Source: Beroe forskalii (lineage: Eukaryota > Ctenophora > Nuda > Beroida > Beroidae). From it: a stretch of DNA of 64,000 bases. The notes below the pieces were generated by a model. The model was not told the origin of the DNA and ran no database searches. It worked only from the letters and a program-made list of their open reading frames with translations. Below are positions 12,797 through 64,000 of the stretch, one piece after another (position 1 is the stretch's first letter; the number at the start of each line of letters is the position of its first letter). A program made the translations under genes and the position numbers. The stretch covers positions 682,001 to 746,000 of the forward strand of contig WFMF01000017.1 in the NCBI GenBank assembly GCA_011033025.1, in the 5' to 3' direction.

Positions 12797-15700
12797 AAAG
12801 AGCCGGTGCTCTGAAAGCAGCAAGCATAATCAAACGGGATACAAGGAGCCGGTGCTCACAGATTCACAAGCAATTAGCTAAAACAAATGGAGTAGATAGA
12901 GCCGGGCCCAAAGAGTCACAAGCAGCAAGCATTATCAAATGGGGCAGATAGAGCCAGGCCCACAGGCCAAGTCACCTGATGCAACAAAGCATAATCAAAT
13001 GGAATAGATAGAGCCGGGCACACAGAGTCTCCTGCAGCAAGTATAATCAAAAGGAGTAGACAGACATTACAGGCCAGAGTCACCTGCAGCAAGCATAATC
13101 AAATGGATTAATTAGAGCCGGGCAAACGGAGTCTCTTGCAGCAAGCATAATCAAATGGGGCAGATAGAGCCGGGCCCACAGGCCAGAGTCACCTGCAGCA
13201 AGCATAATCAAATGGAATAGATAGAGCCGGGCACACAGAGTCTCCTGCAGCAAGTATAATCAAAAGGAGTAGACAGAGCCGGGCCCACAGGCCAGAGTCT
13301 CCTGCAGCAAGCATAATCAAATGGAGTAGATAGAGCCGGGCAAACGGAGTCTCTTGCAGCAAGCATAATCAAATGAGGTAGATAGAGCCGGGCACACAGA
13401 GTCCTGCAGCAAGCATATAAATCAAATGGGGTAGATACTAGATAGAGCCGGGCACACAGAGCCACCTGCAACAAGCAAAATCAAATGGAGTAGACAGAGC
13501 CGGGCTCACAGAGTCTCCTGCAGCAAGCATAATCAAATGGGGTAGATAGAGCCGGGCACACAGAGTCCTGCAGCAAGCATAATCAAATGGAGTAAATAGA
13601 GCTGGGTCCGAAGAGTCACAAGCAGCAAGCATAATTACTTAATTAAATGGACTAGACAGAGCCGGGCACACAGATTCTCCTGCAGCATTAAGCATAATCA
13701 AATGGGGTTCATAGAGCCGGGCCAACAGAGCAACAGAGTCTCCTACAGCAAGCATAATCAAATGGGGTAGATAGAGCCGGGCCAACAGAGTCACCTGCAG
13801 CAAGCATAATTAAATGGAGTAGATAGAGCCGGGCACACAGAGTCTCCTGCAGCAAGCATAATCAAATGGAGCAGATAGAGCCGGGCACACAGATTCTCCT
13901 GCAGCATTAAGCATAATCAAATGGGGTTCATAGAGTCGGGCACACAGAGTCACCTGCAGCAAGCATAATCAAATGGGGTTCATAGAGCCGGGCACACAGA
14001 GTTTACTGCAGCAAGCATAATCAAATGGAGTAAATAGAGCTGGGTCCGAAGAGTCACAAGCAGCAAGCATAATTAAATGGAGTAGACAGAGCCGGGCCCA
14101 CAGAGTCTCCTGCAGCAAGCATAATTAAATGGAGTAGATAGAGCCGGGCACACAGATTCTCCTGCAGCATTAAGCATAATCAAATGGGGTTCATAGAGTC
14201 GGGCACACTGACACAGAGTCACCTTCAGCAAGCATAATCAAATGGGGTACCTTAGGAGGTGTATTTATGTGGGATGAAATTTCGGTGTTTCAAATTTTGG
14301 TAAGTTGAAAATATGGGGATTTTTCAAGTTTTTACTCTTGTTAACATATGATAATGACGTCAAGTCGAAATTTCATGGTGGGTGATAAAATGGTGATTTT
14401 TCTGAAAAATCCCCAAATTACAACCTTTATAAATAAACCTCCTAAGGTAGATAGAGCCGGGCACACAGACTCTCCTGCAGCATTAAGCATAATCAAATGG
14501 GGTAGACAGAGCCGGGCCCACAGATTCTGCTGCAGCAAGCATAATCAAATGGAGTAGACAGAGCAGGGCCCACAGAATCTCCTACAACAAGCATAATCAA
14601 ATGGAGTAGATAGAGCCGGGCACACAGAATCTCCTGCAGCATTAAGCATAATCAAATGGAGTAGATAGAGCCGGGCACACAGAGTCACCTGCAGCAAGCA
14701 TAATCAAATGGAGTAAATAGAGCCGGGCACACAGAGTTTCCTGCAGCAATTGCATAATCAAATGGAGTAGAAAAAGCCGGGCCCACAGAATCTCCTACAG
14801 CAAGCATAATCAAATGGAGTAGATAGAGCCGGGCCCACAGAGTAACCTGCAGCAAGCATAATCAAATGGAGTAGATAGAGCCGGGCACACAGATTCTCCT
14901 GCAGCATTAAGCATAATCAAATGGGGTTCATAGAGTCGGGCACACTGACACAGAGTCACCTTCAGCAAGCATAATCAAATGGGGTAGATAGAGCCGGGCA
15001 CACAGACTCTCCTGCAGCATTAAGCATAATCAAATGGAGTAGATAGAGCCGGGCACACAGAGTCTCCTGCAGCAAGCATAATGAAATGGAGTAGACAGAG
15101 CCGGGCCCACAGATTCTGCTGCAGCAAGCATAATCAAATGGAGTAGACAGAGCAGGGCCCACAGAATCTCCTACAACAAGCATAATCAAATGGAGTAGAT
15201 AGAGCCGGGCACACAGAATCTCCTGCAGCATTAAGCATAATCAAATGGAGTAGATAGAGCCGGGCACACAGAGTCACCTGCAGCAAGCATAATCAAATGG
15301 AGTAAATAGAACCGGGCACACAGAGTTTCCTGCAGCAATTGCATAATCAAATGGGGTAGAAAAAGCCGGGCCCACAGATTCTCCTGCAGCAAGCATAATC
15401 AAATGGAGTAAATAGAGCCGGGCACACAGAGTCAACTACAGCAAGCATAATCAAATGGAGTAGATAGAGCCGGGCCAGCAGAGTCTCCTGCAGCAAGCAT
15501 AATCAAATGGAGTAGATAGAGCCGGGCACACAGAGTCTCCTGCAGCAAGCATAATCAAATGGAGTAGATAGAGCCGGGCCCACAGATTCTCCTGCAGCAA
15601 GCATAATCAAATGGAGTAAATAGAGCCGGGCCAACAGAGTCTCCTGCAGCAAGCATAATCAAATGGGGTAGATAGAGCTGGGCACACAGAGTCACCTGCA

Positions 15701-16935
15701 GCAAGCATAATCAAATGGGGTAGATAGAGCCGGGCCCACAGAGTAACCTGCAGCAAGCATAATCAAATGGAGTAGATAGAGCCGGGCCCACAGAGTAACC
15801 TGCAGCAAGCATAATTAAATGGGGTAGATAGAGCCGGGCACACAGAGTCTCCTGCAGCAAGCATAATCAAATGGGGTAGATAGAGCCGGGCCCACAGAGT
15901 CACCTGCAGCAAGCATAATCAAATGGGGTAGATAGAGCCGGGCCCACAGAGTCTCCTGCAGCAAGCATAATTAAATGGAGTAGATAGAGCCGGGCACACA
16001 GAGTCTCCTGCAGCAAGCATAATCAAATGGAGTAGATAGAGCCGGGCCCACAGAGTCTCCTGCAGCAAGCATAATCAAATGGGGTAGAGTGCCAGGCCCA
16101 CAGAGTCACCTGCAGCAAGCATAATCAAATGGGGTAGATAGTGCCAGGCCCACAGAGTCACCTGCAGCAAGCATAATCAAATGGAGTAAATAGAGCCGGG
16201 CACACAGAGTCTCCTGCAGCAATTGCATAATAAAATGGAGTAGATAGAGCCGGGCACACAGAGTCACCTGCAGCAAGCATAATTAAATGGGGTAGATAGA
16301 GCTGGGCACACAGAGTCACCTGCAGCAAGTATAATCAAAAGGAGTAGACAGAGCCGGGCCCACAGGCCAGAGTCACCTGCAGCAAGCATAATCAAATGGA
16401 TTAATTAGAGCCGGGCACACAGAGTCTCCTGCAGCAAGCATAATTAAATGGAGTAGATAGAGCCGGGCACACAGAGTCTCCTGCAGCAAGCATAATCAAA
16501 TGGAGTAGATAGTGCCAGGCCCACAGAGTTTCCTACAGCAAGCATAATCAAATGGGTTAGATAGAGCTGGGCTCACAGGCCAGAGTCTCCTGCAGCAAGC
16601 ATAATCAAATGGGGTAGATAGAGCCAGGCCCACAGAGTCACCTGCAGCAAGCATAATCAAATGGAGTAGATAGAGCCGGGCACACAGAGTCTCCTGCAGC
16701 AAGCATAATCAAATGGAGTAGATAGAGCCAGGCACACAGAGTCAACTACAGCAAGCATAATCAAATGGAGCAGATAGAGCCGGGCACACAGAGTCTCCTG
16801 CAGCAAGTATAATCAAATGGGGTAGATAGAGCCGGGCCAACAGAGTCTCCTGCAGCAAGCATATAATAAAATGGAGTAGATATAGCCGGGCCCACAGAGT
16901 CACATCTCACAAGCAAATATCAATTAGCATAATCA
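12797..16935. repeat. Satellite array, about 52 bp unit, roughly 75-80 copies
   Basis: The unit is AGAGCCGGGCACACAGAGTC, then TCCTGCAGCAAGCATAATCA and AATGGAGTAGAT. Units vary at set positions: CACACAGAG or CCCACAGAG, CTCCTG or CACCTG, GGAGTAGAT or GGGGTAGAT, and CAGCATTAAGC in place of CAGCAAGC. Several longer blocks, for example about 14080-14245 and 14840-14990, recur as higher-order repeats. Edges degrade gradually (12797-12950 and 16880-16935). Reverse-strand ORFs (MLQETLCARLYLLHL-like) are translations of the unit, not genes. Confidence 0.95.
14250..14447. mobile_element. Tc1/mariner-type MITE inserted in the satellite
   Basis: A 198 bp segment interrupts one satellite unit at GGGGTA|...|TAGATAG. 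TA is duplicated (14248-14249 and 14448-14449), and the ends are 19 bp inverted repeats, CCTTAGGAGGTGTATTTAT and ATAAATAAACCTCCTAAGG. The surrounding units give the empty-site sequence (GGGGTAGATAG), so the boundaries are exact. No coding capacity. Confidence 0.9.
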
Positions 16936-29748: not shown

Positions 29749-30526
29749 CATACATACATACATACATAATATACATACATACATACATACTATATACTGA
29801 TCAATAATGTAGTGATATGACGTCAAAGCTTCCCATTGTTCCCAGAGAATCAGAATTCTGAAAATATTTTATATAGATTGATTATAGCGTCAGTGATCAA
29901 ACAACTGTAGATCAAGTACAGTACTGGTGACAGTGCTCGAACCAATAATTGCAATAAGCTTGTCCATAAATCATATCTATATTTGAAACCCATAAAAGCT
30001 TGGTGCTAGTCTATGATAAAGTCTTGCAATATCAAAATTGATTTCTTATGAAAAGACCTGTAGCAATGATTCAAAATTTCAAACCATTCCTTACTCCTCT
30101 TATCATCTTAATGAAATGAATTGATAGACATACTTTGCCACTCTTCATTTAAATCTCTAGGTCTTGTTACGCAACACTCAATGAGGTACTTTGTAGCTTT
30201 TGAGAACTAATTTGGAAAGCTATTTGTTATAAATTTGTAGCACTTCTTTAAATCGCTTTCTACATTTATGTAGAAGTATAAAAGCTTCATATAGCTTATT
30301 AACTTATCAAGAAGTGCAACTTGTCCGCTTGTAGACTTTGGGTTACATTACTAACCATCTTATTAATATACTTAATTACTAATTAAGTTAATACACGAAG
30401 TTTATTCTGCAGTAGTGTACCATGAGTCTAGACACGTCTTCGACTGTTGTGGCTATTATTTAAGAACTAAGAAGTACTATTAGAAGTATGCACCATGTCT
30501 AACTTGTCACCTATTGTACCCAGGCA
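28358..30526. other. Rab3 3' UTR and intergenic region
   Basis: AT-rich sequence between Rab3 and the RABIF/MSS4 homolog on the same strand. No ORF with a domain. Copy 2 lacks the segment about 28753-29058, where the 1.2 kb element sits instead. Polyadenylation sites cannot be assigned with confidence. Confidence 0.5.
29719..29791. repeat. (TACA)n microsatellite, short allele
   Basis: A CATA tetranucleotide run with one interruption (ATAATATA near 29767). The corresponding run in block copy 2 (54672-54859) is uninterrupted and about 188 bp long. Confidence 0.95.
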
Positions 30527-31027
30527 ATGTCAGAAGGTGAATGTGCATGACACGAAGCCCCAAGGTGACCTGCAATAACAAGTTCCACAACTTCGTGATC
30601 AACTCAAGGAAATCCAGAAGCTCTTGCTCGAGGAGCAACCCTTAACCCTGACTCTCCTCCAGCTGCCTCAGACAAGAAGTTCGTTGATTGGAGCAGTCTG
30701 AACTGCGTGAGCTGGACAGCAAAAACAGGCAGATCCACTGTCCACGGTGCCCCAGCAAGATATGTCTGGCAGACGTGGGGAAGCTGCAGAGCGAAATGAA
30801 GATGGCTAAGTACAAAGGTGGATGGGGCGGACAATGAGGTGGTTACCTTATTCTGGGTCCTGGGCTCCCTCATGTCCTTCGAGAATATCGGAGTTACCAA
30901 AGTGGTGGATAACATCAAGTTTTTATCGTGTGCAGATTGTGAGGTTGGCCCTCTAGGCTGGCATGACACCACTGATAACACTAAGTTTTACATAGCTGCA
31001 GACAGAGTTAGGTATCTGGATTCGTAG
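30527..31027 (+). pseudogene. RABIF: RABIF/MSS4 homolog, copy 1, frame-damaged
   Basis: Nearly identical to the intact gene at 62083-62586 but with at least seven indels relative to it: 2 bases missing after GTGCA (near 30546), TAA inserted in CAATAACAAG (30577), 1 missing in GCTCGAGGAGC, 2 added in CTGCGTGAGC (30707) and 1 added in AAAGGTGG (30816), among others. Only the C-terminal half (from about 30818) stays open, with FLSCADCEVGPLGWH intact. Reads as a pseudogene, but the number of single-base indels across this window also fits uncorrected long-read error. Confidence 0.8.
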
Positions 31028-32069
31028 GGTAGTTTATATTGTAGGCAGTTGAAGCTTTATATTACCTAGATGTTTCCTACTGTACTTGGATGCCTGGAAA
31101 GCCTGATGCATCTGTTATTGCCCTTAAATCTTTAATTCAGTGCCAATCATTTGTAATGAAGTATTAGGTGACCACTGATCACTGACCTAGTCGCGCTGGT
31201 TACGACAATTTGCTGTTCAGTGTCATAAATGATCACAATTTGAAAATTAAATTTTCACATACTTGGCACGGGGTATTTATTGCTTTACATTTGAGATATT
31301 CTTGTATGAATCTGGTTACTGTTATGCTGTATTTACTGAAGAACTTACTATTGTCTAGCCTGTAGCCAGCTGACGGAACTTTGTATTGCCACCAATCAAA
31401 AGCCAATAAGATCCAATAGCAGACTTGGTAGATAGATCTAAAAGCCAGGTGATTTATGACTGCATCAGACAAGGCTGTATAAAAGGAGACCTTAGTACTT
31501 TGAAAATCCCCCATTACACTTTTTTTTACTGAATATTGAATACTAGCTTTAGTAGAGCAATTATCAAACGCAGAATAGATAAAGATAATATTCTATGAAG
31601 CTCCTGTTCGATATTCATAGAACTCTTGGCAGGTTGTAAATTATAATTGCTATTTCATTGGTGGTGGATTCATCAATTCATGATCAGAATGTTTCCAATT
31701 TGACCGCATAAACCATCATTTATGTCTGCTGGTTGCTGTTAATTTTATTTGTTATGAATTATGATTTCTTATTACTGTCATTTGATTCATTAAAAATTGA
31801 TTGAAAATCACAATTAAATTTGACTCAAGATAATTCATACTTTTATTTCATGAAAGACGTATCTTTTATTGATCATTTTCATGTCTCAATGTAATAATTC
31901 AATACTTCAATAGCTACCATGATCATTAAAATCATGTCAGAAATACTCTTATTGTCTTCCTTTGAGTTTTATAGAGGCTAACATTTAATTTGTTTACCTT
32001 AACTTGAACCTACTTATTCATGAGATATTTACTGATGGATCAAAATATCAATGATTGAAAATCTCTCGT
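31028..32069. other. Intergenic between RABIF/MSS4 copy 1 and the hAT-like element
   Basis: AT-rich, collinear with 62587-63630 in block copy 2. The reverse-strand ORF 31233-31514 has no domain and is not kept intact in copy 2, so it is not supported as a gene. Confidence 0.5.
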
Positions 32070-32077
32070 GTAGCAAT

Positions 32078-32832
32078 CAGACCCGTAGACAGAGGGGGGG
32101 CTAGGGGGGCTGCAGCCCCCCTCAGAAGAAAAGGTACCATTTCAAAAAATAGTTAGAATAAAAGTTTTTCGACTGATAATGTACGATTAACAAACGAATG
32201 GGAGTGTTATATCGAAAATTATCACACACGAGGCGTCAGCCGAGTTTGACAATTTCGATATCACGATCCATGGCTTGTTAATTATATTATTACCGACAAA
32301 ACAGTACTCCCTACCACTCGGGTCCTGACGACCCTCGTCTGAATTCAACGTTTTATAGATTTTCGAGTGCTCCTTCATAAAATCAGCAATTTATTTAACG
32401 ATATTCTGCTCTATTATTCCGCCACCGTTCAGTAGTCCTATAAAGGAGTGATATATCGATAATTATCACACTGGAGTTTGAGCCACGGGAGGGTAATAAT
32501 CATAATTATAAACTTTGGCTTGGTTAAATAGTGGCAGTTTAATCTTATTCTGACTGTTATAGCTTGTTTATATTTGACTGTATACTACTTCGATGCTCTA
32601 ATTTTAACAAATATCGTCCTGTTCATTTCCTGTACATTTCTTTGTTGTAAAAATCATCCGACAGCACCCTAATTTCCCTAAAATTTTTCGGGGGCTCCGC
32701 CCCCTAACTCCCTGACAGGGGCTTGCCCCTGGACCCCGCTGGGGGCTGCGCCCCCAGACCCCTGCCGCAGCTTGCTCGCTTCGCTCGCAACTCTAGGGCC
32801 CCTCCCGGAAAATAATCCTGGCTACGGGCCTG
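32078..32832. mobile_element. hAT-like non-autonomous DNA transposon, 755 bp
   Basis: Flanked by the 8 bp direct repeat GTAGCAAT (32070-32077 and 32833-32840). Block copy 2 has the single unoccupied sequence TGTAGCAATATAGCAATATG at about 63630. Terminal inverted repeats are CAGACCCGTAGACAGA and, complemented from the right end, CAGGCCCGTAGCCAGG. An 8 bp TSD with CAG-starting TIRs is the hAT signature. The right half has G/C-rich subterminal runs (GGGGGCTGCGCCCCCAGACC). It contains the repeat also found at 1133-1455. No transposase frame. Confidence 0.92.
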
Positions 32833-33095
32833 GTAGCAATATAACAATATGATATGAAGCACCAGCTTATAGTGGCACCAGCTTATAGTGGCTACAGTTG
32901 AACATGCTTTACGATATTGCAATGAAAATTAGGTATTTATTCAATCGAGTTAGGAACAGGAATATATAGGTATTGAATAAATTATTGCCTCAGGTAGGCA
33001 TTGGTGTAATTTTGAACTACTAGTACTGTATACCCAGAATTTTAATTCTCTTGTGTTACATATTACCTTGCTTGTTGTTCCTTAAATTATGAAGA

Positions 33096-34102
33096 ATGCA
33101 GATGTTGGAACATGTATATGACTTTCTGAATGGACTTCATGTACATTGGTACTGTTTAATCAAATACTCGTGGTTGGCTATCCTTCTTCTGTTCCTGTGG
33201 AAGCTTGTAACACTTGATCATGATCTCATGGTGTTGTTTGCCTCTCTCAGATACCCTTCTTGGAGACTTCGCAAGCATTTCTGGGAAAGTAATATGGATT
33301 ACTGGAGCCTCATCAGGTCTTGGCAAAGCACTTGCAATACAATTAGCAAGGTTTCCCTGTATTCTTGTACTTTCCTGCAAGAAGGAAAGATGCGAGCTAG
33401 AGAAAGTTAAACTAGAATGTGAAAGTTTAGGTTGTGTCTCAAATGATGGTGTTACCAATGGATTCTGAATTTGACAAGTTGCCGGGTTTGCAGCAAATGT
33501 TGTTGATGTAAGGAACTATTGATGTGTTAGTCAACAATGCTGGTAGAGCTCAACGAAGCCTTATTAAAGATACAGAACTTGCTGTTGATAAGGCTATCAT
33601 GGAACTCAATTATTTTGGAGTGTAGCTCTGACTAAAGCTGTTTTGCCACACATGGTTAATAAGAGTAATGGTGCAATACTTGCAGTAAGTAGTATTACAG
33701 GTAAAATGGTAGCTTTCTGCTCAGCTGGGCTATGCTGCCAGCAAGCATGCAACTCAGGTTTCTTTCACCCCTCCGTTCAGAACTGTTCTCTCATGGAATC
33801 AATGTGCATCATATGTCCTGGTCCAGTAGACAGTCGGATAGGATTCCCATTCTTTCACTGATACAGTCAACAAAGCTTACAATCGAAAAAGCTGGGCGTG
33901 AGTCTTGAAACAAAGTGCAGAAAGATATGCTGAGCTTGCAGTTGTTTCCCTTGTTGCCAAGTTACCTGAGCGGATAAGGCTTCAGCCTTACCTTTGTCAA
34001 CATATGTGGCACAATACTTGCCAGTCATAAAGCACTCTGTCATAGGCAGCAGCAGAGCAAAGTCGAATCAAACGGTTTGAAAGGAATGAATGCTTACAAT
34101 AA
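33096..34102 (+). pseudogene. DHRS7-like short-chain dehydrogenase, broken copy A
   Basis: Starts with an N-terminal hydrophobic segment (about residues 24-36, WLAILLLFLW) and FASLRYPSWRL, as in the better copy at 41444. Two bases are then lost at CATTTCTGGG (about 33282), shifting ITGASSGLGKALAIQLARFP into another frame. Later recognisable pieces are VNNAGR (about 33531), LPHMVNKSNGAILAVSS (33640), the active-site region corresponding to YxASKHA (about 33735, frame-shifted) and CPGPV (33817). DHRS7-type enzymes are ER-membrane NADPH-dependent reductases of retinoids and steroids. Multiple frameshifts make this a pseudogene as it stands. Confidence 0.8.
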
Positions 34103-34833
34103 CTACAAGTTAATGGGCTATTCCACAAAAGGAGTTACTAAGGCAAGTAAGGGTTTCCATGTATCCTGTTTCAACACAGGCTTAAAAAACTCAATATTGA
34201 GATGCTTATATTATATATTGCCAGAGCCTGTAGCCTCCTAGATTATAAGAAGGTCCAATCAGAGCCCTAGCAATGTATGATGGAGCTTTGGGATAACCCA
34301 ATCTTTCTTCATGATCCTGGGTATGCGAGACTGATAAATTGCGTTTTGCCAAAAACATTATACTTTGGAGTACCTACTTAGTTATTAAAATGTACAAAGA
34401 TTATTATCATCCTGATCAAAACTTTGGTACTTTCGTCCATAATGTTTTCGTTTTACCTTGATTGTCACTATTTGCAGATATTTGAAGGTTATTCAATATT
34501 CAAAATGAACTAATTTTCAGGAGATATAGAGGTATGTAGGTAACATGTCACTTATTTTAATTTCCTTACATATTATCATGTTTTAATAGCTTTTTGATAA
34601 ATTTTGATTAGGTAAGCATGGAATCGTTCATTTTTGATCATAACTTTTAAAAATTGAAACTTTTATTAATTATACTGATGAACAGTGTTCATGGATTATT
34701 GATTTTGATAAGGTCACAATGCCAATTTTTTCCTTAATTGGTTTGCTGCATCTCTGTCTGGCTATGCTCTACTGGACTCCTGGCTAGCTGATGTGTTTCC
34801 TACCTGATCCCCTTCCCTGATGCTATCTGTATT
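34103..34833. other. Spacer and probable LINE 5' UTR
   Basis: AT-rich sequence between the broken DHRS7-like copy and LINE ORF1. The LINE's 5' end should lie here, but with no second copy in the window I cannot place it. The C-rich stretch at 34725-34833 directly before the ATG resembles the coding part in composition and may be 5' UTR. Confidence 0.4.
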
Positions 34834-36941
34834 ATGCCACCAAAAAAATCAAACATCCAGTCTCCCAAATCGTCAAGGAGTAGCATTCCTAAAGGCCAAC
34901 ACAGGCAAAGTGAACGTATTGCTACAGCTTCTGTGGGGCTGTCAAATCCCCCTGGCACCCCCAAAATTGACAAGACCAACAGCAACACTGAAGAAATGAT
35001 AGATGTTGAACAACTGTCCAAGAAACCATCTGATGTTAAGAAGGTGAATAAAGACACCTGCCCCTGTGGCAAATCCTCTGGTGGACAGTGCTGGGTCCTA
35101 GCCTGTTCACAATGCAAGCAATCGTGGCACCAAGCCTGTGTAGGACTCAAAGTTGAATTAGACAAGGACACAGTCAATTCACTAATGCGCTCATGGCAGT
35201 GTCCCTGGTGCTTCACCTGTCCCTACACGAAACCAGACTCCCACCCCTCAACTAAATGTGCCAAGAGTATCCAAGAAAAGGTTTTTGTCACATCCACTGT
35301 CCAGGGCATTATTGATTCCGTTACTGCTGAAAACTCAAAGTTGGCTGCCATGATTTCTCACCTTGAAGACAGATTAGGGTCCGTGTCGTCAGATATTGAC
35401 TCTATACATGGCATACAGAATGCCATCTCAGAAAGAGTTGTCAAAATTGCCGATCTAGAGACCCATTTGCAGCACCAAATCATGAGCCAGGCTGCTCTTG
35501 ATCAAAAAATGAAGTCCCTCCAACTGGCTCTTTCTGAAATCCAAGAAAATGTCACCAAGTTTTCAGAGCATACCCCAACCCATTCTCATTCTACTTCCTC
35601 TGCAGCACCCTCTCAGATCCCAGTAAACTCTGGAGCTTCTGATCTCCCTGAGCATAACCTAGAAGCTACTTCTGGAATCAAAGAGGAATTTATTACTGAA
35701 GAGCTTTCTGAAAGGCTAATTGAATTCTTGGACACTATCTCATTCAAAGCTGAAAATGGTCACTCTGTAACTGCCTTTGGGTCTCCCTATAAATACACAG
35801 GCTCTCAGACACCAGAAGAACCTGAACCTGTCCCTGAATTGCTGAAGCCATTACTTGAGCAAGTAAACAATTTGCAAAAGGATATCCATATTGGAAAGTA
35901 TCCAGACAGTGTCAGATTTAACAGAGCCCACCCTCAGATTAATTCAATATTGATCAACAAATACAATGGCCCTGAAGCCTTTCTACCAAAGCATTCTGAT
36001 AATGAAGAATCAATTCACCCTGAATCTCATATTTTTACTCTATCACTTGGGGCTGAATGCAAGTTGGACTTCGACTGCAAGACTTCCTCCAGCAACCAGC
36101 CACCAATTTCTATGTCCTGTCCCCCCAGATCGCTTTATGAAATGAGCCGCAAGTCACAGGAAATCTTCACACATGAGATTAAACCTGGAAGCACAGAGGC
36201 TGGGACCCGTTACAGTCTCACATTCCGCTCAGTAAACAGATGGAATAAAAACTCTTGCTGCATAATTGGTGATTCCAATACAGGGTCACTGCACTTTGGC
36301 TGTGACAAGCGCAAAACATTCGGTGAAATGATGCCTGGGCAGCGCTTCTGGGCCCCAAAAATCGAAACTATTGAACCATCTATATGTTGTTCCTACAACA
36401 ATGTAGTAATCATGTGTGGCACAAACGATGTCAGGCAGCGTAGTGTGAACGGCCCACGAGATGTAGAGTCTATTTACCAGATGTATGTTGACAAATTGAA
36501 TGAGATACGGAAGTTTAACTCAAAATGTAGAATCTTCGTTTGTCCTATCTTACCAACAAAGACTCAAAGAGTAGTCAAATAAATAGAGGGGCACTATATT
36601 TCAACAGACTTATATTTGAAAATCTCATGAACTCTAACTTAGGGGTGCATTGTGTCGAGGGATTTGACGATTTCTTGGATGAGGATGGGAGTGGCCTTCT
36701 CTCCAAGAGCTTGTCAAAGAATGTTGACCGAAACAACAGGCCAGACATTTTGCACCTCAACCTTTATGGTGTCAGGAAGTTGGCTAGTTTTATCAAACAG
36801 GCAATATTTGGTAGGCTACGTAATACAGGAAATGGGAGGAACCTGAGTAATATTACAACAAATCGAGTCAATGGTCGTTCTTATTCAAGTGTTGCTGCAC
36901 CACCAGCTCCCACTGGTGATCACGCAAGGCCTGGAACCTGA
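34834..36941 (+). CDS. LINE ORF1: PHD finger, coiled coil, AlkB-like dioxygenase, SGNH hydrolase (one frameshift)
   Basis: The first 582 codons are open to a TAA at 36580-36582; the frame continues at 36540-36941 after one shift near 36570. PHD-like zinc ligands are C76, C78, C91, C94, H99, C102, C123 and C126. A coiled coil spans about 155-243. The AlkB-like domain (about 312-470) shows FGSPYKYTG, NKYNGPEAFLPKHSDNE with Fe ligands H387/D389, H447, and RYSLTFR with R459 and R465 matching the 2OG-binding and neighbouring arginines of AlkB. The SGNH part has GDSN (479-482, nucleophile S481), GTND (529-532) and, after the shift, DILHLN as the Asp/His block. Role is inferred: RNP assembly plus oxidative demethylation of nucleic acid. 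SGNH esterase domains are known from CR1 ORF1; I do not know the AlkB fusion as a standard LINE feature. Confidence 0.85.
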
Positions 36942-39900
36942 TACCAAAATTCAATAATTGTATCAGAGAAAAATGTAACCACTGTGTTAAGAACATAAAC
37001 GTTGGTCAGAGTGCTTACGAATGCTTTGATTGTGACAAAATTTTTCATCAAAACTGCTTCAAAAGATCCAAGGGCGAAATCCTTAACCAAAATTCTTACT
37101 GTTCCACATGTAAAATAGATGTAGAGACTAGATATCATCCTCTGTCTGGGCAGGACAATGAGGATGAAAATGATGAATTTTTGAATAGGCTCTCCAGCAT
37201 CTTAAACAACTGCAAATCTTACGACATTGATAGCTTTAACTCAAGTTATAATGGTAGTACCAAAGCACAGGGCAGTATGTTGTTTCAGAACATCGATGGA
37301 AACAAAAGTAACTTTGACTTATTCATAGCTCAACTCCACCGTCTAGATTTAAAGTTCTCTATTATAGGTCTAGCAGAAACTAACACCAGTGTTGAAGAAA
37401 GTCCTGTATATAATTTACCTGGATACATGCCCTTTTATCAAGATGTCATAGAAGGCAAGTCTAAAGGAACAGGAGTTTGCCTCTATGTAAGTACTTCATT
37501 GAACGCAGTGATTGAACCATCCTTTTCATCAGTAAGTGAAAACCTAGAAACCCTATTTGTAACCATAGTAAGGATGATAAAACGTCAAGTACTGTTGGTG
37601 TAGTTTATCGCCCCCTAGTGGCTCTCTGAATGATGCTATGAATGAACTGAATGAAATAGTAAGACAACTGCCTAAAAAGTCTGTCCACATCATAGGTGAC
37701 TTTAATATAGATCTACATAAAGGTAACTCTAGGGAAGTGCAAATGCTCGAGGACACCACTGTTGCTCTTGGAATCTATCCTCTCATATCTACTCACACTC
37801 ACGAGAAACCTGGCTGTAAGAAGTCATGTATAGACAATATCTTCACTAACGTTCCTGAAAGTAGTTTATCATCTGGAACACTTAAACTCTGTATCTCCCA
37901 CCACTTAGCTCCATTCCAAATATGTGAAGACATTCTGTCCCATAGTACTAATGATAGCAAGCATATTCAATATTCAATATGTTGATAAATTAAGGGATAA
38001 ACTTAAAGAAGAGTTCTCGAATAATCCCCCTAAGAACTTTGAACAGTTCGCAAGCTGTTTTCAAGATAACCTTGACCAATCTTGTAAGTTAGTTAAACCT
38101 AAGCACTCTAAGCGCACAACAGCTAACAATCCGTGGATAACAAGTGGGCTTATTGCATCTATTGCCAATAAAGATAACTTATTCAAATTGTGGGAAGCTG
38201 CCAAAAAGAAGAAGTGTGTCAGTAAATTAACAGAGATGTCAGAGCGTGACAAGTGTGACTGTGTTTTCTGTGCTGATATTCGACTGAAGTACGTTAGATT
38301 TAGTGACTATAGAAAAAGGCTCAAGTTCTTGATCAATTTTAGGAAAGCTAAATACCTAGGCTTAAAGGTAGAGGAATGTGTAGGAGACAGTAAGAAAGTC
38401 TGGAAAATTATCAATAATGTACGGGGCAAAAATAAACAGCTTATTAAACCCAATTTTGTTATAGATAATAAACGTATTACAGATAGGAGAGTGATAGCTG
38501 ATGAATTTAATAAATACTTCGTTTCACTGGCTCCTTCACTGAACAAAGCTTACATTGATGAAAATGGTGTAAGGATTAATAGGCTATCAAATTTCAGTAA
38601 CTTCCTTAAGGAGAAGTGCCAAAACACACTTAAACTTAGAGAATGTAATCAGGAAGAAATAGAATCCATTATAACTGAACTAAAGCTAGGTAAATCTAGT
38701 GATATTCCTGTCCATGTAATTAAGTCTACAGCTGGCGTTTTATCTCCAATATTATCTACAATATTTAACAAATGCATGATTGATGGGTACTTTCCCTTGG
38801 AACTCAAGACTGGTAGAATAAGTCCAATATTCAAAAAAGACAATGCAGAACTGCTAGAAAACTACAGGCCTGTCTCTACATTACCAATATTTGGTAAGAT
38901 ATTTGAGAAGTTGATATATGACAGAATCTACCAATTCTTAGAGGACAATAACATAGTATATGAAAACCAATATGGATTTAGGAAAGGACACTCCACTGCC
39001 CATGCTCTGAACTATTCAGTTAAACATATAAGAGATCAAATTAAATTAAAAAGTTCACCATAGGTATCTTTATTGACTTGAGTAAAGCTTTTGACACATT
39101 AGACCACAGTATATTGATAGATAAGCTGGACCACTATGGTATTCGTGGGAATGCACTCAACCTAATTAAAAGCTACCTCTCTGACAGAAAGCAACTAGTC
39201 AGTGTGCTAAGTGAGAATTCTGAAACTCTCCCTGTCAGGTTTGGTGTACCCCAGGGCTCTGTTCTGGGTCCCCTGCTCTTTATTCTGTATATAAATGACA
39301 TATGTAACTCTGCTGGTAATTGTAAAACCATCCTATTTGCTGATGATACTAATATATTTGTTACTGGTGATAGCAAAGAATCAGTCTATAAAAATGCTAA
39401 TGAGATCTTATATAATATATCAAGATACATGGAATCTAACTTACTACATATTAATACCAAAAAATGTTGCTACATGCTTTTCTTTGAAGGTAAGAGGGAG
39501 CCCACTGTCTCAAATGACCTAAACATATCAATAAATGGTAAAATTGTCAAGAAAGTTAGTGAAGCAAAATTTTTAGGAGTACTGATGGATGATAATTTAT
39601 CCTGGAAACCCCACATTGCACAATTAAACAAAACTTTAAAGAGTGCATGTGGTAGACTCTATCGTATTGCTAATTCTCTACCATCTAAGCTTCACAAGCA
39701 GATTTACCATTCTCTATTTGAATCACACCTTAGTTATGCAATTTCCGTCTGGGGAGGGGTAGCCCTAAGTAATCTGGAGCCAATATTCCGCACCCAAAAG
39801 AAATGTTTACGTATAATGTTTGGAGACACAGAAACTTATCTAGAAAAATTCCGCACTTGTGTACGGGCTAGGCCATTTGGTGAACAAAAACTTGGAATAG

Positions 39901-40307
39901 AGTTTCACAGTAGGGAGCCATCTAAACCACTTTTCACTGAGCACAATCTGCTAACTGTACAAAACCTCTACCGTCTAAGATGTATAATGGAGCTTGTGAA
40001 AATCGTCAAGACTAGAGAACCAGCACCCCTACATGGGACTCTATATATATCTAAGCAAAATACTAATCGCTTTATAACACCCGATCCCTCTATATACTTC
40101 TTTTATCAAGCACCTATGCTTTGGAATAATTTTAGGAAAAGCACTCACAATCTTGGCCTTGAACAGGATGAAAATCTTATCAAAAATATTCTGAAGAATT
40201 CCCTTTTATCAGCACAGCAGCAGAATCTAGATTATTGGTCTAACATTAATTTTACTGAATTTCTTGCAGCTGACATCGGTAAAACTGGAATAGGTGAAGC
40301 ATCTTGA
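36920..40307 (+). pseudogene. LINE ORF2: zinc finger, endonuclease, reverse transcriptase (frameshifted)
   Basis: The frame opens at 36920 overlapping the ORF1 stop and has no in-frame ATG early on. A PHD/C1-like finger (Cys codons from 36959; CNHC, CFDC, FHQNC, CSTC) precedes the endonuclease (IIGLAETNT, later GVVYRPPSG, IIGDFNIDLH, SCIDNIFTN). The RT follows: PIFKKDN.ELLENYRPVS, QYGFRKGHST, DLSKAFDTLDH, VPQGSVLGPLLF, FADDTNIF (FADD at 39336-39347) and FLGVLMDDNLSW. Frame changes occur near 37572, 37612 (in a C5 run), 37955 and 39062. ORF2 would nick target DNA and prime cDNA synthesis. This copy cannot make a full protein as read; homopolymer-linked indels leave room for sequencing error. 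Confidence 0.9.
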
Positions 40308-41443
40308 TTATGTAGCAGACTTACGTTTATGTTCACATTTTATCGAACTTTGATGAAATTGATCAATTTGAGGTTCAACTTGGATAGATACGACCATGGC
40401 TCGGTAGTTTTACAGCTTTATGTGGCAAGTAACAAAGATACTTGACATATCGATCCAAATCTTAAACATGATTTAATAGGTAGTGTTGTTAAGTCTCTCA
40501 ATGTCTAGCTAGGCTTTCCAAACTTTTTACCATCTAACCAAGTGTGTAAAATTGACTTTCATTTTTATTGAGAGTCATACATGATATTGAAATATTGCGA
40601 GGCTTCACACTACAGTTGAAGACAAGAGGAAGTTGGTTTTCAATAAGCCAGGTATTGTATTGATACTGTTGGGCTCCCATTCTTTATGCAAATTTTATTT
40701 GAAAGTTAGATATAGTTGACCCCGATCTGTGTTGCAGGTGGTCCCCAAGGGCACTCTGAAGCAAATAGCCACTGTGACCTTTCTCCAACCACATCTACTG
40801 CAACATGGATCACAGGGTCTTACCAAAGGAATTGGCTAAGTTTAACTTATCTCAAACCATGAGATTTTTGTAGCCAATTTTTATTCGCCTCGTCATCATG
40901 TCAATGTTATTCAAACTAGAATACTTTAATACCTAATGTGCAATAACACTCTAACATACCTATGTTGCATCGTATGGTATGTTAATATCAGAAGACATGT
41001 TTCTTTTGAATAGCACATTATGTACAAAAGTCTTCTAAACTTTTTTTGTCTTACTTTCTTTCAACGGCCAAGGATGGCCCAAATGAATAACAACATTTAT
41101 ACATGACAAGATGATAACCCAAATGTTTTACTGAGCTAACCTAAATGTCCTATTCCTCATGATAAGACATTCAATTAATGTTATCACAAAAGGGCGGCAA
41201 TATATTGAGATTTTAATCCCTAATGTTCCTATGTAAGTATATCAACCTTTTAAGCCAATGATATGGATTATACTTCAAATTGTTTCTAACAATTAATGGT
41301 CATTTAATACTTTTATGAAATATTAGACAGCTTGGTGATCTCTAGTCAATGGAAATGAAAGTTATCTGATATTATGGAGTAAATAAAAAATTATTGTTTA
41401 ACTCAAAAAAAAATTATTGTTTAACTCCTAGACCATCCAAGAC
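40308..41443 (+). other. LINE 3' UTR
   Basis: About 1.1 kb without ORFs between the RT stop and the tandem AAATTATTGTTTAACTC tail; the next recognised sequence is the DHRS7-like copy B. Part of this could be host sequence, since the LINE boundary is judged only from the tandem tail. Confidence 0.5.
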
Positions 41444-42434
41444 ATGTTTCCGTGGTGGTTGTCGAGCAACATTTCTCCGAGATACATTTTGATACTGTTA
41501 CTTCCTCTGTTCCTGTGGAAGCTTGTAACACTTGATCATGATCTCATGGTGTTGTTTGCCTCTTTAAGATACCCTTCTTGGAGACTTTGCAAGCATTTCT
41601 CTGGGAAAGTAGTATGGATTACTGGAGCCTCATCAGGTCTTGGCAAAGCACTTGCAATACAATTAGCAAGGTTTCCCTGTATTCTTGTACTTTCTGCAAG
41701 AAGGAAAGATGAGCTAGAGAAAGTTAAACTAGAATGTGAAAGTTTAGGTTGTGTCTCAGATGTGATGGTGTTACCAATGGATTCTCTGAATTTGACAAGT
41801 TGCCGGGTTTGGTAGCAAATGTTGTTGATAAGTATGGAACTATTGATGTGCTTGTCAATGTGCTGGTAGATCCCAGCGAAGCCTTGCAGAAGACACTGAG
41901 CTTGCTGTAGATAAGGCTATCATGGAACTTAACCTGTTTGGCTACATCGCCCACACAAAAGCAATTCTTCCAACCATGATCAAAAAATAGATCTGGTACA
42001 ATTGTCGCCATTAGTAGTGTCGGGAAAGATGGGTGTTCCTGTCAGCACAGCTTATTCTGCTAGTAAGCATGCAGTTCCACGGCTTCTTTGATGCCTTGCG
42101 CATGGAACTTTACTCTCAGGGAATCAGTGTTTGTACTGTCTGCCCAGGACCAGTACGGAGTAATATAGGCTTACATTCATTCACAGAGACTGTCAACAAA
42201 GCATTTAACAAAGAAACTCTACAAGAAGGGAGAAAACAGAGTCCAGAACGATTTGCTCAACTGATGTCAATTGCAATTGCTGCAAGGTTGCCAGAAAGTT
42301 GGATCAGCATACAACCTTATCTTCTATATACATACATCGCCCAGTACTTACCAACTGTGTTTCAGTCATTTTTAGTCAATGCAGCTGGTCAGGGTCGTAT
42401 TAGAAAGTTCAGAAATAGTGAATGTCTGTATTAA
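41444..42434 (+). pseudogene. DHRS7-like short-chain dehydrogenase, copy B (several small indels)
   Basis: The first frame (41444-41815) has a membrane-anchor segment (residues 12-26), then VVWITGASSGLG (57-67; TGxxxGxG cofactor-binding motif), the LSARRKDELEKVK strand typical of DHRS7, and VLPMD. The rest is readable only with frame changes: VN.AGRSQRSL near 41855 (two bases short), a TAG at 41987-41989, SSV.GKMG near 42020, YSASKHA (42052-42072; catalytic Tyr/Lys) and one extra C near 42078. The final 42033-42434 frame is long and clean: RMELYSQGISVCTVCPGPV through SWISIQPYLLYTYIAQYLP, ending CLY. The conserved C-terminal half argues for recent or ongoing function; scattered single-base indels may be assembly errors. 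DHRS7-type enzymes are ER NADPH reductases. Confidence 0.82.
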
Positions 42435-45400
42435 AATCTTAAAATCGCATGAATAAGCCAATTACTTGTTTTACTTGCTAAATCTAAAAGCTAGAATATC
42501 TAATATCTTTTTTACTTACAGGTATGTAGTATTGAAATAATATTATGTTAATATGCCAGTTTCTACAAAATACAAATTAGAGTCATCTGATTTAAGATAT
42601 TATACATTCCATTTCAACGCTACCAGCTAGACCTGTTAACTTACACCTGTAGGCATATTTCTTGCCTCTTTGATTGATTGATAGTGTCGTTTTTTAAATT
42701 TATGTTGTAGTAATGTGATGCTATAATAGGTGATAGTTAATAAAATTTTTCAGTCTTGATACTTTAATTATATTTAACTCTCTCCTCCTCTAGTTTTACA
42801 ATATTAAACTGTATTTTCTTAAATTATTAATTAAATTTTTCTATTTTTACACTATACTTTTAGATACCTTATTTTAGCTCATTATCTATTTATGATTTTC
42901 GAACATCCACGTACATTCATTCTTATTATAGAATGGCTGACCTGGAGTTGAGAATTGAACATATGACAGAATAGTAGAACTTCAGCAAACAATTTCAGTC
43001 ATTTGTGACAGATATTAAGGTACGATTTTTGACAAGTTTTTGAACCACTCATCACCAAAAGCGTAAAGGAAAGCTTCGCCATCGAAAAAGATCTAGAGTC
43101 GACTCTAAAATAATGAAATTGTTTCAGTGAAAATAAAGTTTCATCTAGTGATGTTACAAGTGCTTTCGATCTGTTGCCTCCAGCGCCAAGCTAGAACTTT
43201 ATTCATTTCTTGCTAGCAATGACAGAATCATGAATCTGGAAGCAACATTTCAGACTTGGAGTTTGATCCTGATGAAAGGATGAAAGTTAGAATGAAAGTC
43301 CCAGGAAAAGTCCAAAGTGGAACTTATGAAGCTGCAGCGAGACAGCAAACGAGAAGGCAAGAAATTTAAGGAGGTAAAAGTCCATCAGGCTGCAGAACAA
43401 TCATGGAGAAGCATAGAGGTTTAGTAACACTGGAAGACTATGCCTCAAGTGAATAGAGGCCTCAAGCTCAGTTGCCCCACAGAAAATGCAAAATTTGCCA
43501 AAACTGACACGATAAAAAGCAGGATTAATTTTTCGTTTGAGGAAATAATTCATATAAACTATAAAACCAATCCAATTTCTGATTAGTTTTATGGTTCAGA
43601 ATTTAACAGAGCAGAACTCAGATTATGAAATGCTCCACTGAAATACTCACTGGAAATGATAGAGGTTGTATGTATGTAGGTTTTTCAAATGATGACCAAA
43701 GGCGAAATTTTGACGTCCTTATTCGTTTTAAAGTGGACCGAAGGGGTGGTTGGTCTAAGTATGACCTCACTCGCAGTTTGGATGTGAAACGGAACCTGAA
43801 AAGAGCAAAATGGACTGATCCACAAACCAACGAACGAGGTACTAGACAACCGTATTGGTGGTTATTAAATCTTTAAATGATGAGATGGGGATGGGGAATT
43901 ATTTTCTTTAAATGGGGAAATAGTGATGGGTTTTGGTATGTTTTCCCAAAAAAGGTCGTTTTTTGGGAAAAAACTCATTTCTGGATGGCCCCCTTGGCCC
44001 CACTATTTTTTTTATATTTTTTTTTCTATTTAATTTGACGCTTTAACAGAAATGACCCTATTTTTTATAATCAACTTTTTTTCAATATATCTAAAATTTT
44101 TTAAAAAGCTTTTGGAATTTTCCCAATGATAAAGGTTATAGGTTTTTTCGGTGGTACCCTAAAAAAGTGGTGGATTGAAGTTTGGAGATTTCTGTCTTTC
44201 CTTCCTTGGGTTTAAAATAAAATTTTTAAGGGTGCAAAGAAAAATTAAAAAAAAAAGGGCATTGTCCTATTTTACACAAAAGGTTTTCTTGGGGAACCCC
44301 TTTCCCCCACTTGATCTCAGGGGGAAAGATTTCAGTACATGTTCATTATGAAGTCTTAAATAATCTTTGCGACCCCTTTTTTTCCCTTTTCAGTCTCACC
44401 TATTTTTCGAAGTGTTGCTTTTCAACCTATGAGACCACATGTCAGTTACACGGAACTGTCTTACCTTGATGCCTTAAAATGCAATTAATCTTTTACAATA
44501 TGTGATAGGACTGTTGTGATAAATGCTACCAAACTTGTTGGTGAAGTGTGGTTATTTTCGGTTGATTTCTTCAAATTTTAGTTTCACTTCTCATGTGAAG
44601 ATCAATCATTACAGTTTGGGCTTTCTCTGCTGGGACTTGGTTCGGGTTTACGTGTTAGGGGCTTCGCATTTTTTTAATTCTTTTAATAATCTCTTTTGTT
44701 CTTTTACCTTTCGAAGTCTGACATTGCATGTTTGTAATCTGACTTATAATTCTATTCTTATTCTTACAGGATGAAGTTTAGTTATGAGTTTAGTAACTTG
44801 TGGGACTGTCTACAAGGGAGAAACCTCATCTTTTCCCCCTGACAGCATGCATGCTAGTCCTGTTGGCATAAGAATCTATGTTTGACATGAAAGCAGGTAC
44901 ACGCTTCCACTGATTTGTTTCTTGGATATTTCAAATATAAATTCATTTATTAAGCAAAAACCTGTATATTTTAAATGCTGAGTGACTTACCTATTTCCTT
45001 CTTTCATTATATATACATATACCCGCAGCCTCTGGGCTGAATTTCTTCATGGCATCGTCGTTAATTACCCCTCGAGGCGCTACCCCAGTGGGATATTCAT
45101 TATACGCCAGGGCTCGAGAGCCCAGTGCTATCAAATTTAACCATGAGGCGAGGATATAGTATATATCCACTCCGTGAGCTTTTTGGGAGAATAGCTTTAG
45201 AATAAAAAAAGTTGAATGTTCAAAAAATCCTCAATTTGAACACACAGGAAGGTTTTTGCAACAATAATATCAGGTTTTTCTCTAATTAACAAAATTTAAA
45301 TTTTTTCACAAATGCAATACAAACACGATTAAGCACCGTAAGTATTTGATCGAAGGGGTTGGCAAACATGTAAAGTTATGAGCCGAGGGCCCGAAGAACT

Positions 45401-61783: not shown

Positions 61784-62082
61784 TATAAATTTGTAGCACT
61801 TCTTTAAATCGCTTTCTACATTTATGTAGAAGTATAAAAGCTTCATATAGCTTATTAACTTATCAAGAAGTGTAACTTGTCCGCTTGTAGACTTTGGGTT
61901 ACATTACTAACCATCTTATTAATATACTTAATTACTAATTAAGTTAATACACGAAGTTTATTCTGTAGTAGTGTACCATGAGTCTAGACACGTCTTCGAC
62001 TGTTGTGGGTATTATTTAAGAACTAAGAAGTACTATTAGAAGTATGCACCATGTCTAACTTGTCACCTATTGTACCCAGGCA

Positions 62083-62586
62083 ATGTCAGAAGGTGAATGT
62101 GCAGATGACACGAAGCCCCAAGGTGACCTGCAACAAGTTCCACAACTTCGAGCTGATCAACTCAAGGAAATCCAGAAGCTCTTGCTCGGAGGAGCAACCC
62201 TTAACCCTGACTCTCCTCCAGCTGCCTCAGACAAGAAGTTCGTTGATTGGAGCAGTCTGAACTGCGAGCTGGACAGCAAAAACAGGCAGATCCACTGTCC
62301 ACGGTGCCCCAGCAAGATATGTCTGGCAGACGTGGGGAAGCTGGTGCAGAGCGAAATGAAGATGGCTAAGTACAAGGTGGATGGGGCGGACGATGAGGTG
62401 GTTACCTTTTTCTGGGTCCTGGGCTCCCTCATGTCCTTCGAGAATATCGGAGTTACCAAAGTGGTGGATAACATCAAGTTTTTATCGTGTGCAGATTGTG
62501 AGGTTGGCCCTCTAGGCTGGCATGACACCACTGATAACACTAAGTTTTACATAGCTGCAGACAGAGTTAGGTATCTGGATTCGTAG
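62083..62586 (+). CDS. RABIF: RABIF/MSS4 homolog, Rab-binding zinc protein (intact)
   Basis: A 167-codon frame. The C-terminal two thirds match MSS4: CPRCPSKI with C72/C75, WVLGSLMSFENIGVTK (111-126) and IKFLSCADCEVGPLGWH (131-147) with C136/C139 as the second zinc pair; the human protein has FIFENVGFTKDVGNIKFLVCADCEIGPIGWH at the equivalent place. MSS4 binds nucleotide-free exocytic Rabs (including Rab3, Rab8 and Rab10) as a weak exchange factor and holdase. The N-terminal 60 residues are longer than in mammals and unassigned. An upstream ATG at 62051 opens a different frame, so either 62083 is the start or the CCAG before it (62075-62078) is a splice acceptor. It is downstream of Rab3 exons on the same strand. 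Copy 1 is at 30527-31027. Confidence 0.92.
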   Translation: MSEGECADDTKPQGDLQQVPQLRADQLKEIQKLLLGGATLNPDSPPAASDKKFVDWSSLNCELDSKNRQIHCPRCPSKICLADVGKLVQSEMKMAKYKVDGADDEVVTFFWVLGSLMSFENIGVTKVVDNIKFLSCADCEVGPLGWHDTTDNTKFYIAADRVRYLDS

Positions 62587-63881
62587 GGGTAGTTTATATT
62601 GTAGGCAGTTGAAGCTTTATATTACCTAGATGTTTCCTACTGTACTTGGATGCCTGAAAGCCTGATGCATCTGTTATTGCCCTTAAATCTTTAATTCAGT
62701 GCCAATCATTTGTAATGAAGTAATGGGTGACCACTGATCACTGACCTAGTCGCGCTGGTTACGACAATTTGCTGTTCAGTGTCATAAAATGATCACAATT
62801 TGAAAATTAAATTTTCACATACTTGGCACGGGGTATTTATTGCTTTACATTTGAGATATTCTTGTATGAATCTGGTTACTGTTATGCTGTATTTACTGTG
62901 AAGAACTTACTATTGTCTAGCCTGTAGCCAGCTGACGGAACTTTGTATTGCCACCAATCAAAAGCCAATAAGATCCAATAGCAGACTTGGTAGATAGATC
63001 TAAAAGCCAGGTGATTTATGACTGCATCAGACAAGGCTGTATAAAAGGAGACCTTAGTACTTTGAAAATCCCCATTACACTTTTACTGAATATTGAATAC
63101 TAGCTTTTAGTAGAGCAATTATCCAAACGCAGAATAGATAAAGATAATATTCTATGAAGCTCCTGTTCGATATTCATAGAACTCTTGGCAAGGTTGTAAA
63201 TTATAATTGCTATTTCATTGGTGGTGGATTCATCTATTCATGATCAGAATGTTTCCAATTTGACCGCATAAACCATCATTTATGTCTGCTGGTTGCTGTT
63301 AATTTTATTTGTTATGAATTATGATTTCTTATTACTGTCATTTGATTCATTAAAAATTGATTGAAAATCACAATTAAATTTGACTCAAGATAATTCATAC
63401 TTTTATTTCATGAAAGACGTATCTTTTATTGATCATTTTCATGTCTCAATGTAATAATTCAATACTTCAATAGCTACCATGATCATTAAAATCATGTCAG
63501 AAATACTCTTATTGTCTTCCTTTGAGTTTTATAGAGGCTAACATTTAATTTGTTAACCTTAACTTGAACCAACTTATTCATGAGATATTTACTGATGGAT
63601 CAAAATATCAATGGTTGAAAATCTCTCGTGTAGCAATATAGCAATATGATATGAAGCACCAGCTTATAGTGGCACCAGCTACAGTTGAACATGCTTTACG
63701 ATATTGCAATGAAAATTAGGTATTTATTCAATCGAGTTAGGAACAGGAATATATAGGTATTGAATAAATTATTGCCTGTAGGCATTGGTGTAATTTTTTG
63801 AACTACTAGTACTGTATACCCAGAATTTTAATTCTCTTGTGTTACATATTACCTTGCTTGTTGTTCCTTAAATTATGAAGA
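62587..63881. other. Intergenic between RABIF/MSS4 copy 2 and the DHRS7-like gene
   Basis: Collinear with 31028-33095 of block copy 1 minus the hAT-like element. The unoccupied hAT target GTAGCAAT lies near 63630-63640. No gene seen. Confidence 0.6.
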
Positions 63882-64000
63882 ATGCAGATGTTGGAACATG
63901 TATATGACTTTCTGAATGGACTTCATGTATATTGGTACTGTTTAATCAAATACTCGTGGTTGGCTATCCTTCTTCTGTTCCTGTGGAAGCTTGTAACACT
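63882..64000 (+). CDS. DHRS7-like short-chain dehydrogenase, N-terminus only (cut by window end)
   Basis: Starts ATGCAGATGTTGGAACATGT, the same as broken copy A at 33096, and runs open to the window edge through the membrane-anchor residues WLAILLLFLWKLVT. One base differs in this stretch (GTATATTGG for GTACATTGG). Whether this copy is intact further on cannot be seen; copy A loses its frame about 190 bp into the gene. Confidence 0.7.
   Translation, partial: MQMLEHVYDFLNGLHVYWYCLIKYSWLAILLLFLWKLVT

Follow-up and report, generated by a model that had tools for sequence, protein, structure and literature searches.

A long interspersed nuclear element (LINE) of the ctenophore Beroe forskalii encodes, within its first open reading frame (ORF1), a predicted AlkB-type Fe(II)/2-oxoglutarate (2OG) dioxygenase domain, and its presence there is fully supported by profile matches and residue conservation. 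The element lies in a stretch of 64,000 nucleotides (GenBank assembly GCA_011033025.1, contig WFMF01000017.1, positions 682,001 to 746,000, forward strand), referred to here as the window. The AlkB region is under purifying selection and is conserved among lineages that have diverged from one another and in sequences from other sources. Profile and structural evidence favors the ALKBH2/ALKBH3 repair type over ALKBH5, an eraser of N6-methyladenosine (m6A). At about even confidence, we propose that an ALKBH2/3-type AlkB in the ORF1 protein (ORF1p) demethylates the element's own RNA or cDNA for reverse transcription.

The AlkB domain within ORF1

A preliminary description of this DNA had started ORF1 at the ATG at 34834, equated residues 312-470 with 35767-36243 and listed FGSPYKYTG, H447 and RYSLTFR with R459 and R465 as AlkB motifs; these coordinates and residues are right, and NKYNGPEAFLPKHSDNE holds H387 and D389 as placed there. 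The AlkB profile match that it expected was found far beyond chance: PF13532 (2OG-FeII_Oxy_2) matches ORF1 residues 311-465 at 60.7 bits (E 3e-16; curated cut-off 31.2), and the 159-amino acid (aa) AlkB piece alone gives E 7.4e-17. Residues 312-470 fall inside the domain, but its true start lies earlier, at about residue 281 (35674), since the alignment to ALKBH2 of a confident structure model of 35674-36579 (AlkB plus the SGNH part) begins at the first residue. The double-stranded beta-helix fold of the AlkB family is present. In an alignment of 79 ORF1 proteins, 73 of which were used in the structure alignment, the iron triad HxD...H and the two 2OG-site arginines are invariant in 77-78 of 79 rows, the remaining rows being gapped. 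Moreover, E391 aligns with ALKBH2 Glu175, whose role has been described (PMC3985658, PMC12295762), as has the YXY/F motif (PMC3985658). The LINE AlkB is predicted to be an active Fe(II)/2OG dealkylase of the ALKBH2/ALKBH3 type.

Frames for an apurinic/apyrimidinic endonuclease (APE) and then a reverse transcriptase (RT) follow downstream of ORF1 on the same strand, with no long terminal repeats (LTRs), in keeping with the earlier placement of the domain in a LINE ORF1. As read from profile matches and motifs, ORF1 of this APE-RT LINE group consists of a PHD finger, a coiled coil, the AlkB dioxygenase and an SGNH hydrolase, in that order (Table 1). The C/H ligands of the PHD finger are each kept in 63-65 of the 63-66 aligned rows with letters. 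The SGNH motifs are similarly constant in the ORF1 alignment (GDSN 78/78, G529 76/77, N531 77/77, with the late D and H nearly invariant), while the SGNH Pfam match in the window ORF1 is weak (PF13472, residues 509-575, E 0.011, below cut-off). The GDS, GxN and DxxH motifs of a type IV (esterase) ORF1 are all present, split over two frames in the window copy. Full-length ORF1 homologs in the protein database have about 530-860 aa.

This PHD/SGNH ORF1 suggests a resemblance to CR1/L2 LINEs with esterase (type IV) or PHD (type III) ORF1s, which carry a PHD finger and/or coiled coil plus SGNH, and APE plus RT in ORF2 (PMC4120745, PMC3905857). The available part of a survey of 448 Jockey-superfamily ORF1s mentions no AlkB, dioxygenase or 2OG and gives esterase ORF1s in only two vertebrate groups (PMC4120745). 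In agreement with the preliminary description, to which AlkB was not familiar as a standard LINE domain, it is absent from the LINE ORF1 types as far as these texts describe them.

Table 1. Features of the LINE and its insert in the window (all on the + strand)
Feature	Position	Strand	Basis and remarks
LINE ORF1	34834..36582	+	ATG 34834 to TAA 36580-36582, 582 aa; truncated within SGNH domain
PHD-type zinc finger (residues 76-126)	35059..35211	+	PF00628 E 8e-4, below curated cut-off
Probable coiled coil (residues ~157-247)	35302..35574	+	Suggested by weak matches to coiled-coil families
AlkB-type 2OG/Fe(II) dioxygenase domain (residues 281-470)	35674..36243	+	PF13532 and structure model
YxY, base-recognition lid motif (Y319, Y321)	35788..35796	+	Y319 in 75/77, Y321 in 76/77 rows
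HSDNE: Fe ligands H387 and D389, plus E391	35992..36006	+	H.D.E in 77/77 rows with letters, of 79
H447, third Fe ligand	36172..36174	+	78/78 rows with letters, of 79
RYSLTFR, R459 and R465 (2OG site)	36208..36228	+	Both in 78/78 rows with letters, of 79
SGNH/GDSL hydrolase, N-terminal part (GDSN 479-482, G-x-N 529-531)	36244..36579	+	Motifs; shared model with AlkB
SGNH remainder, other frame, with D-x-x-H (DILH)	36531..36938	+	Open frame; motif read in DNA
ORF2 fragment: zinc finger and APE endonuclease start	36920..37603	+	C1/PHD-like finger matches, weak PF03372, all below cut-off
ORF2 fragment: pre-RT region and RT start	37909..39063	+	RVT_1 E 1.1e-8
ORF2 fragment: RT catalytic part and C-terminus	39045..40307	+	RVT_1 E 1.8e-25
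Inserted stretch with LINE	34739..41423	+	About 6.7 kb; flanks matched by segmental duplicate

Spread, selection and lineages

The host genome (216 Mb) yielded 189 PF13532 candidates, of which 150 were scored; all 150 lie above the cut-off, and in 140 the matched stretch is free of stops. With the ORF1 protein as query, 93 places in the same genome match (75 of 365 candidates scored), the self-match aside at 27-68% identity, most of them in open frames of at least 400 aa, some rows being two pieces of one frame. Of 78 ORF1 homologs in the protein database, 74 carry a precomputed PF13532 assignment and 12 also a GDSL family; three are hypothetical proteins of Mnemiopsis leidyi, and most have ENA as their source. 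These counts and the tree described below, in which host ALKBH2/3-like genes stand elsewhere, refute a single capture of a host ALKBH gene or a misassembly, an explanation that would have suited the broken window copy and that we now give next to no weight.

Co-occurrence of AlkB with RT, which had been suggested as a check, was seen in 11 of 20 fetched AlkB loci, each with an RT downstream on the same strand; the loci come from the top of the match list and hence represent the best-scoring matches, not a random sample. The other nine comprise two of Helitron type (L015, L023), four host-like genes (L009-L012) and three with a LINE-like ORF1 and no RT match (L017, L021, L026).

Selection on the domain was assessed in six copies of the window lineage. 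Over 15 pairs, the proportion of nonsynonymous differences (pN) in the AlkB region is 0.157-0.266 and the synonymous proportion (pS) 0.724-0.878, which is saturated; in the linker before AlkB, pN is 0.265-0.649 in the same copies. An unsaturated pair from another lineage (L034/L036; 282 codons of the AlkB-SGNH region) has a nonsynonymous rate (dN) of 0.020 and a synonymous rate (dS) of 0.22. The dN/dS comparison proposed at the outset hence gives a ratio of 0.09.

Sorted by ORF1 and RT likeness, the copies fall into lineages A (the window, L029-L033), B (L013, L016, L020, L024 and others), C (L026, L027) and D; L034-L038 and L018 stand on additional branches of the AlkB tree. The RTs of A and C are 43-46% identical, those of A and B 24-43%, and that of D is 22-30% identical to the rest. 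SGNH directly follows AlkB in A and C. Lineage B gives only weak SGNH matches, of 11.8-18.3 bits in six loci, and none in L013, L014, L017, L021 and L025; PF13472 gives E 0.04-0.05 in L020 and L024 and no match in L013. Lineage D (L046, L049-L055; contigs C1002, C305, C409, C580, C423, C492, C325) has an AlkB-like domain, a long spacer and SGNH; in C423 it is accompanied by an ORF2 of 1122 aa with a related RT (E 5e-26 to L013) and an APE-like frame before ORF2. PF13532 matches the lineage D domain at E 8e-5 and 1.7e-4, below cut-off, and alignment to the LINE AlkB profile (hhalign) gives 96.4% probability and E 1e-9. Its structure model is poor (pLDDT 54.5), so that the structure match is weaker support than the profile match, even though each of the 50 rows listed by Foldseek is an AlkB or another oxygenase of 2OG type.

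AlkB-less relatives were sought in seven stretches upstream of ORF2s that had no listed AlkB match, one of which (L043) spans only 140 bases to the contig end. None of the seven holds an AlkB match: L041, L042, L044 and L045 are without any ORF1, and L039 and L040 retain only its 3' part, patterns that would be expected of 5'-truncated copies. Further upstream of L039 (L048) there is no frame of at least 120 aa. An intact AlkB-less ORF1 of these lineages was not found among the seven stretches. Separately, L047, which has an SGNH ORF1 and an APE match, shows no AlkB frame of at least 120 aa on that strand in the stretch fetched. Neither of the results named in the preliminary description as refuting it, the lack of a profile match to AlkB or copies of the family without the domain or its HxD...H...R residues, appeared in lineages with a complete domain, where the residues are invariant; two qualifications are lineage D, which keeps the fold without the catalytic residues, and L047, with no AlkB frame in the stretch fetched.

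The window copy and its insertion site

The window copy is dead, with its AlkB part intact: ORF1 stops at 36580 within the SGNH domain, and ORF2 is split over several frames, of which the APE fragment shares 37% identity over 93 aa with the APE-side frame of L027. Further along the contig, at a distance of about 31 kb, a segmental duplicate (L056; C214:746001-749500) matches the window at 33215-34738 (94% identity) and 41424-42975 (97%) and is without 34739-41423. A match to both flanks without this stretch shows the element to be an insertion some 6.7 kb long. At the same site the duplicate has a different stretch of 382 bp, so either the LINE insertion deleted that length or the duplicate gained it. 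A target-site duplication was looked for and none was seen. A single direct repeat was noted across the insert (33183-33876 and 41501-42202, about 81% identical); it lies outside the insert in host-gene sequence, which we take, from a TGASSGLGKA motif, to be pieces of a short-chain dehydrogenase gene. Two copies of ATTATTGTTTAACTC flank a run of A at 41390-41427, the 3' end of the insert, perhaps a LINE 3' tail repeat. The segmental duplication pairs 30228-34738 with 61784-64000 and on to C214:747553, in pieces that are 94-98% identical. Elsewhere in the window are a satellite-like tandem array (12817-16901; 52-bp unit, about 76 copies, strong AT skew) and an open frame of 227 aa (7061-7744) with no Pfam match at E 0.01.

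Subfamily, possible roles and a second element class

A first profile searched against the PDB contained host ALKBH rows and leaned to ALKBH2/3, so the search was repeated with LINE rows only, and this version is quoted here. The LINE-only profile matches ALKBH2/3 at E 4e-23 to 3e-20, ALKBH5 at 2e-4 and NMAD-1 at 4.5e-4, with no match to FTO at E 0.001. ALKBH2/ALKBH3 are thus the closest profile matches, and the HxDxE and YxY motifs of that subfamily are present. Membership of the ALKBH5/FTO type, which would call for one of these as the closest match, is unsupported. The AlkB tree (75 of 226 extracted domains, with 24 LINE homologs taken as every third identifier and 18 standalone AlkB-like proteins) comprises ALKBH2/3-like proteins, standalone AlkB proteins, most of which are bacterial or unnamed, and AlkB domains of transposons, without ALKBH1, ALKBH4-8, FTO or viral rows. 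Within that content, placement of the domain in an AlkB tree, as had been advised, puts the LINE AlkBs on a branch of their own (support 97/89), apart from the host ALKBH2/3-like genes.

Retrotransposition of non-LTR elements proceeds by target-primed reverse transcription of an RNA template, and 1-methyladenine (m1A) and 3-methylcytosine (m3C) block both base pairing and reverse transcriptases. In the mechanism that we favor, ORF1p would bind RNA of its own element in cis, and the AlkB domain would strip Watson-Crick-face methyls (m1A, m3C) from the RNA that serves as template, from the growing single-stranded cDNA, or from both. Lesions that stop the reverse transcriptase would so be cleared before target-primed reverse transcription or while it proceeds. 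AlkB may also provide a nucleic-acid contact that esterase-type ORF1ps would otherwise lack; these are described as combining coiled coils with an esterase that binds lipids, and no RNA-binding domain is known in them (PMC3905857). Catalysis, substrate and cis action are all predicted here from sequence, and the purpose, whether shielding RNA and cDNA or erasing host marks, is likewise only suggested by it.

Several observations weigh against this proposal. Without a profile, the window domain searched against the PDB finds ALKBH2 at E 0.007, behind a chance match to YTA7 (0.0014), and in the tree the LINE AlkBs fall within neither the ALKBH2 nor the ALKBH3 branch, so that their likeness to these enzymes is one of profile and fold. 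In our reading of the alignment, the window lineage has His at the position of ALKBH2 Arg110, a residue important for ALKBH2, where other LINE lineages have Arg. In all AlkB comparisons but one, dS exceeds 1.5, at or near saturation of synonymous sites. Furthermore, all seven aligned copies of lineage D have lost the Asp of HxD (H-I-x-Y, once S-I-x-Y) and both arginines; the domain of this lineage is likely a pseudoenzyme retained in ORF1, kept there for a non-catalytic use.

A first alternative, which we consider unlikely, is that the domain is an epitranscriptomic eraser, removing a host mark such as m6A from element or host RNA and so escaping recognition or decay. A retrotransposon precedent exists: an AlkB encoded by Ty3/Gypsy (Ogre/Tat) elements of the orchid Phalaenopsis binds RNA and removes m6A in vitro (PMC9289625). 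The orchid protein, however, is called ALKBH5-like, whereas ALKBH5 lies far below ALKBH2/3 in the LINE-only profile (2e-4 versus 4e-23), and m6A aids and ALKBH5 suppresses retrotransposition of human L1 (PMC7873242). Both points weaken this alternative, although the hosts differ. Rather unlikely, too, is a structural role in which the AlkB fold serves as a nucleic-acid-binding or ribonucleoprotein-assembly domain and catalysis is dispensable. The conserved but residue-less domain of lineage D fits such a role, as does the reported lack of RNA-binding domains in esterase ORF1ps, but the Fe and 2OG residues, which a scaffold could do without, are invariant in the other lineages examined. Less probable still is demethylation of DNA at the new insertion, in which methyl marks such as N6-methyladenine (6mA) or N4-methylcytosine (4mC) would be removed at the target or copy and silencing delayed, the PHD finger within ORF1p reading chromatin; the 6mA demethylase NMAD-1 is indeed among the structural matches, but only at the E-value given above in the LINE-only profile.

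Plant RNA viruses encode AlkB domains in a replicase context. They share with the present LINE an AlkB in a selfish RNA-based element and differ in that context. Human ALKBH2 and ALKBH3 differ in identity (about 20%) and tree branch, and the LINE domain is part of a multidomain transposon protein. The orchid element, like ours, is a retrotransposon encoding an AlkB-type 2OG dioxygenase, but it is an LTR element in one plant genus with a separate, recently acquired ORF (PMC9289625), whereas the domain described here sits beside SGNH in ORF1 of a non-LTR element, is ALKBH2/3-like and occurs in diverged lineages and also in further sequence sources, Mnemiopsis among them; ORF2 is APE-RT, not an LTR gag-pol.

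SGNH and AlkB also occur together in a second element class, in the reverse order. L023 (contig C847; L023:2277-8354, +) has one frame of 2026 aa with a GDSL lipase (11-170, 31.7 bits; cut-off 32.9), AlkB (246-376, E 3.8e-19), DUF6570 and Helitron_like_N (1752-1952, E 7e-24). L015 (C225; L015:2155-5661, +) has SGNH and AlkB 60% identical to those of L023 over 390 aa, with no Helitron match among the Helitron_like_N matches listed. Upstream of a second Helitron_like_N locus (C297, L057) lie degraded relatives (SGNH 77% over 64 aa, AlkB 53% over 176 aa), the AlkB piece having no Pfam match at E 0.01. The Helitron AlkB forms its own long tree branch (support 100/99). Of the 20 Helitron_like_N matches, 2 have AlkB in or beside them, the other 18 not having been opened; so far as this sample shows, the combination is rare. 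Searching a database for the Helitron form gave just two weak matches, at 1e-5 and, to a LINE ORF1, at 1.6e-4. Helentrons and Helitrons with extra enzyme domains (OTU, APE) are known (PMC6431247), as is a platyfish SGNH gene captured by a Helitron (PMC4021074); the available text of either mentions no AlkB beside SGNH in a Helitron_like_N frame as in L023. We found no description of AlkB in a LINE or Helitron in the literature, as searched by title and the start of the abstract, with Repbase, Dfam and subscription papers outside this scope, so that an earlier note is possible. A tentative reading, to which we give somewhat less than even credence, is that SGNH and AlkB were brought together in mobile elements on at least two occasions and recur as a module that would strip methyl damage or marks from single-stranded intermediates, the domain of one LINE lineage having become catalytically dead.

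ORF1 proteins are the least understood half of LINEs, and for those of esterase type no means of handling RNA is known. A repair-type dioxygenase conserved in ORF1 leads to the hypothesis that base methylation of the RNA template limits retrotransposition strongly enough for elements to carry an eraser, and AlkB plus RT would be a natural enzyme pair for reading through methylated RNA. If the module is indeed recurrent, nucleic-acid repair or unmarking by enzymes of their own would belong to the ordinary transposition machinery of transposable elements.
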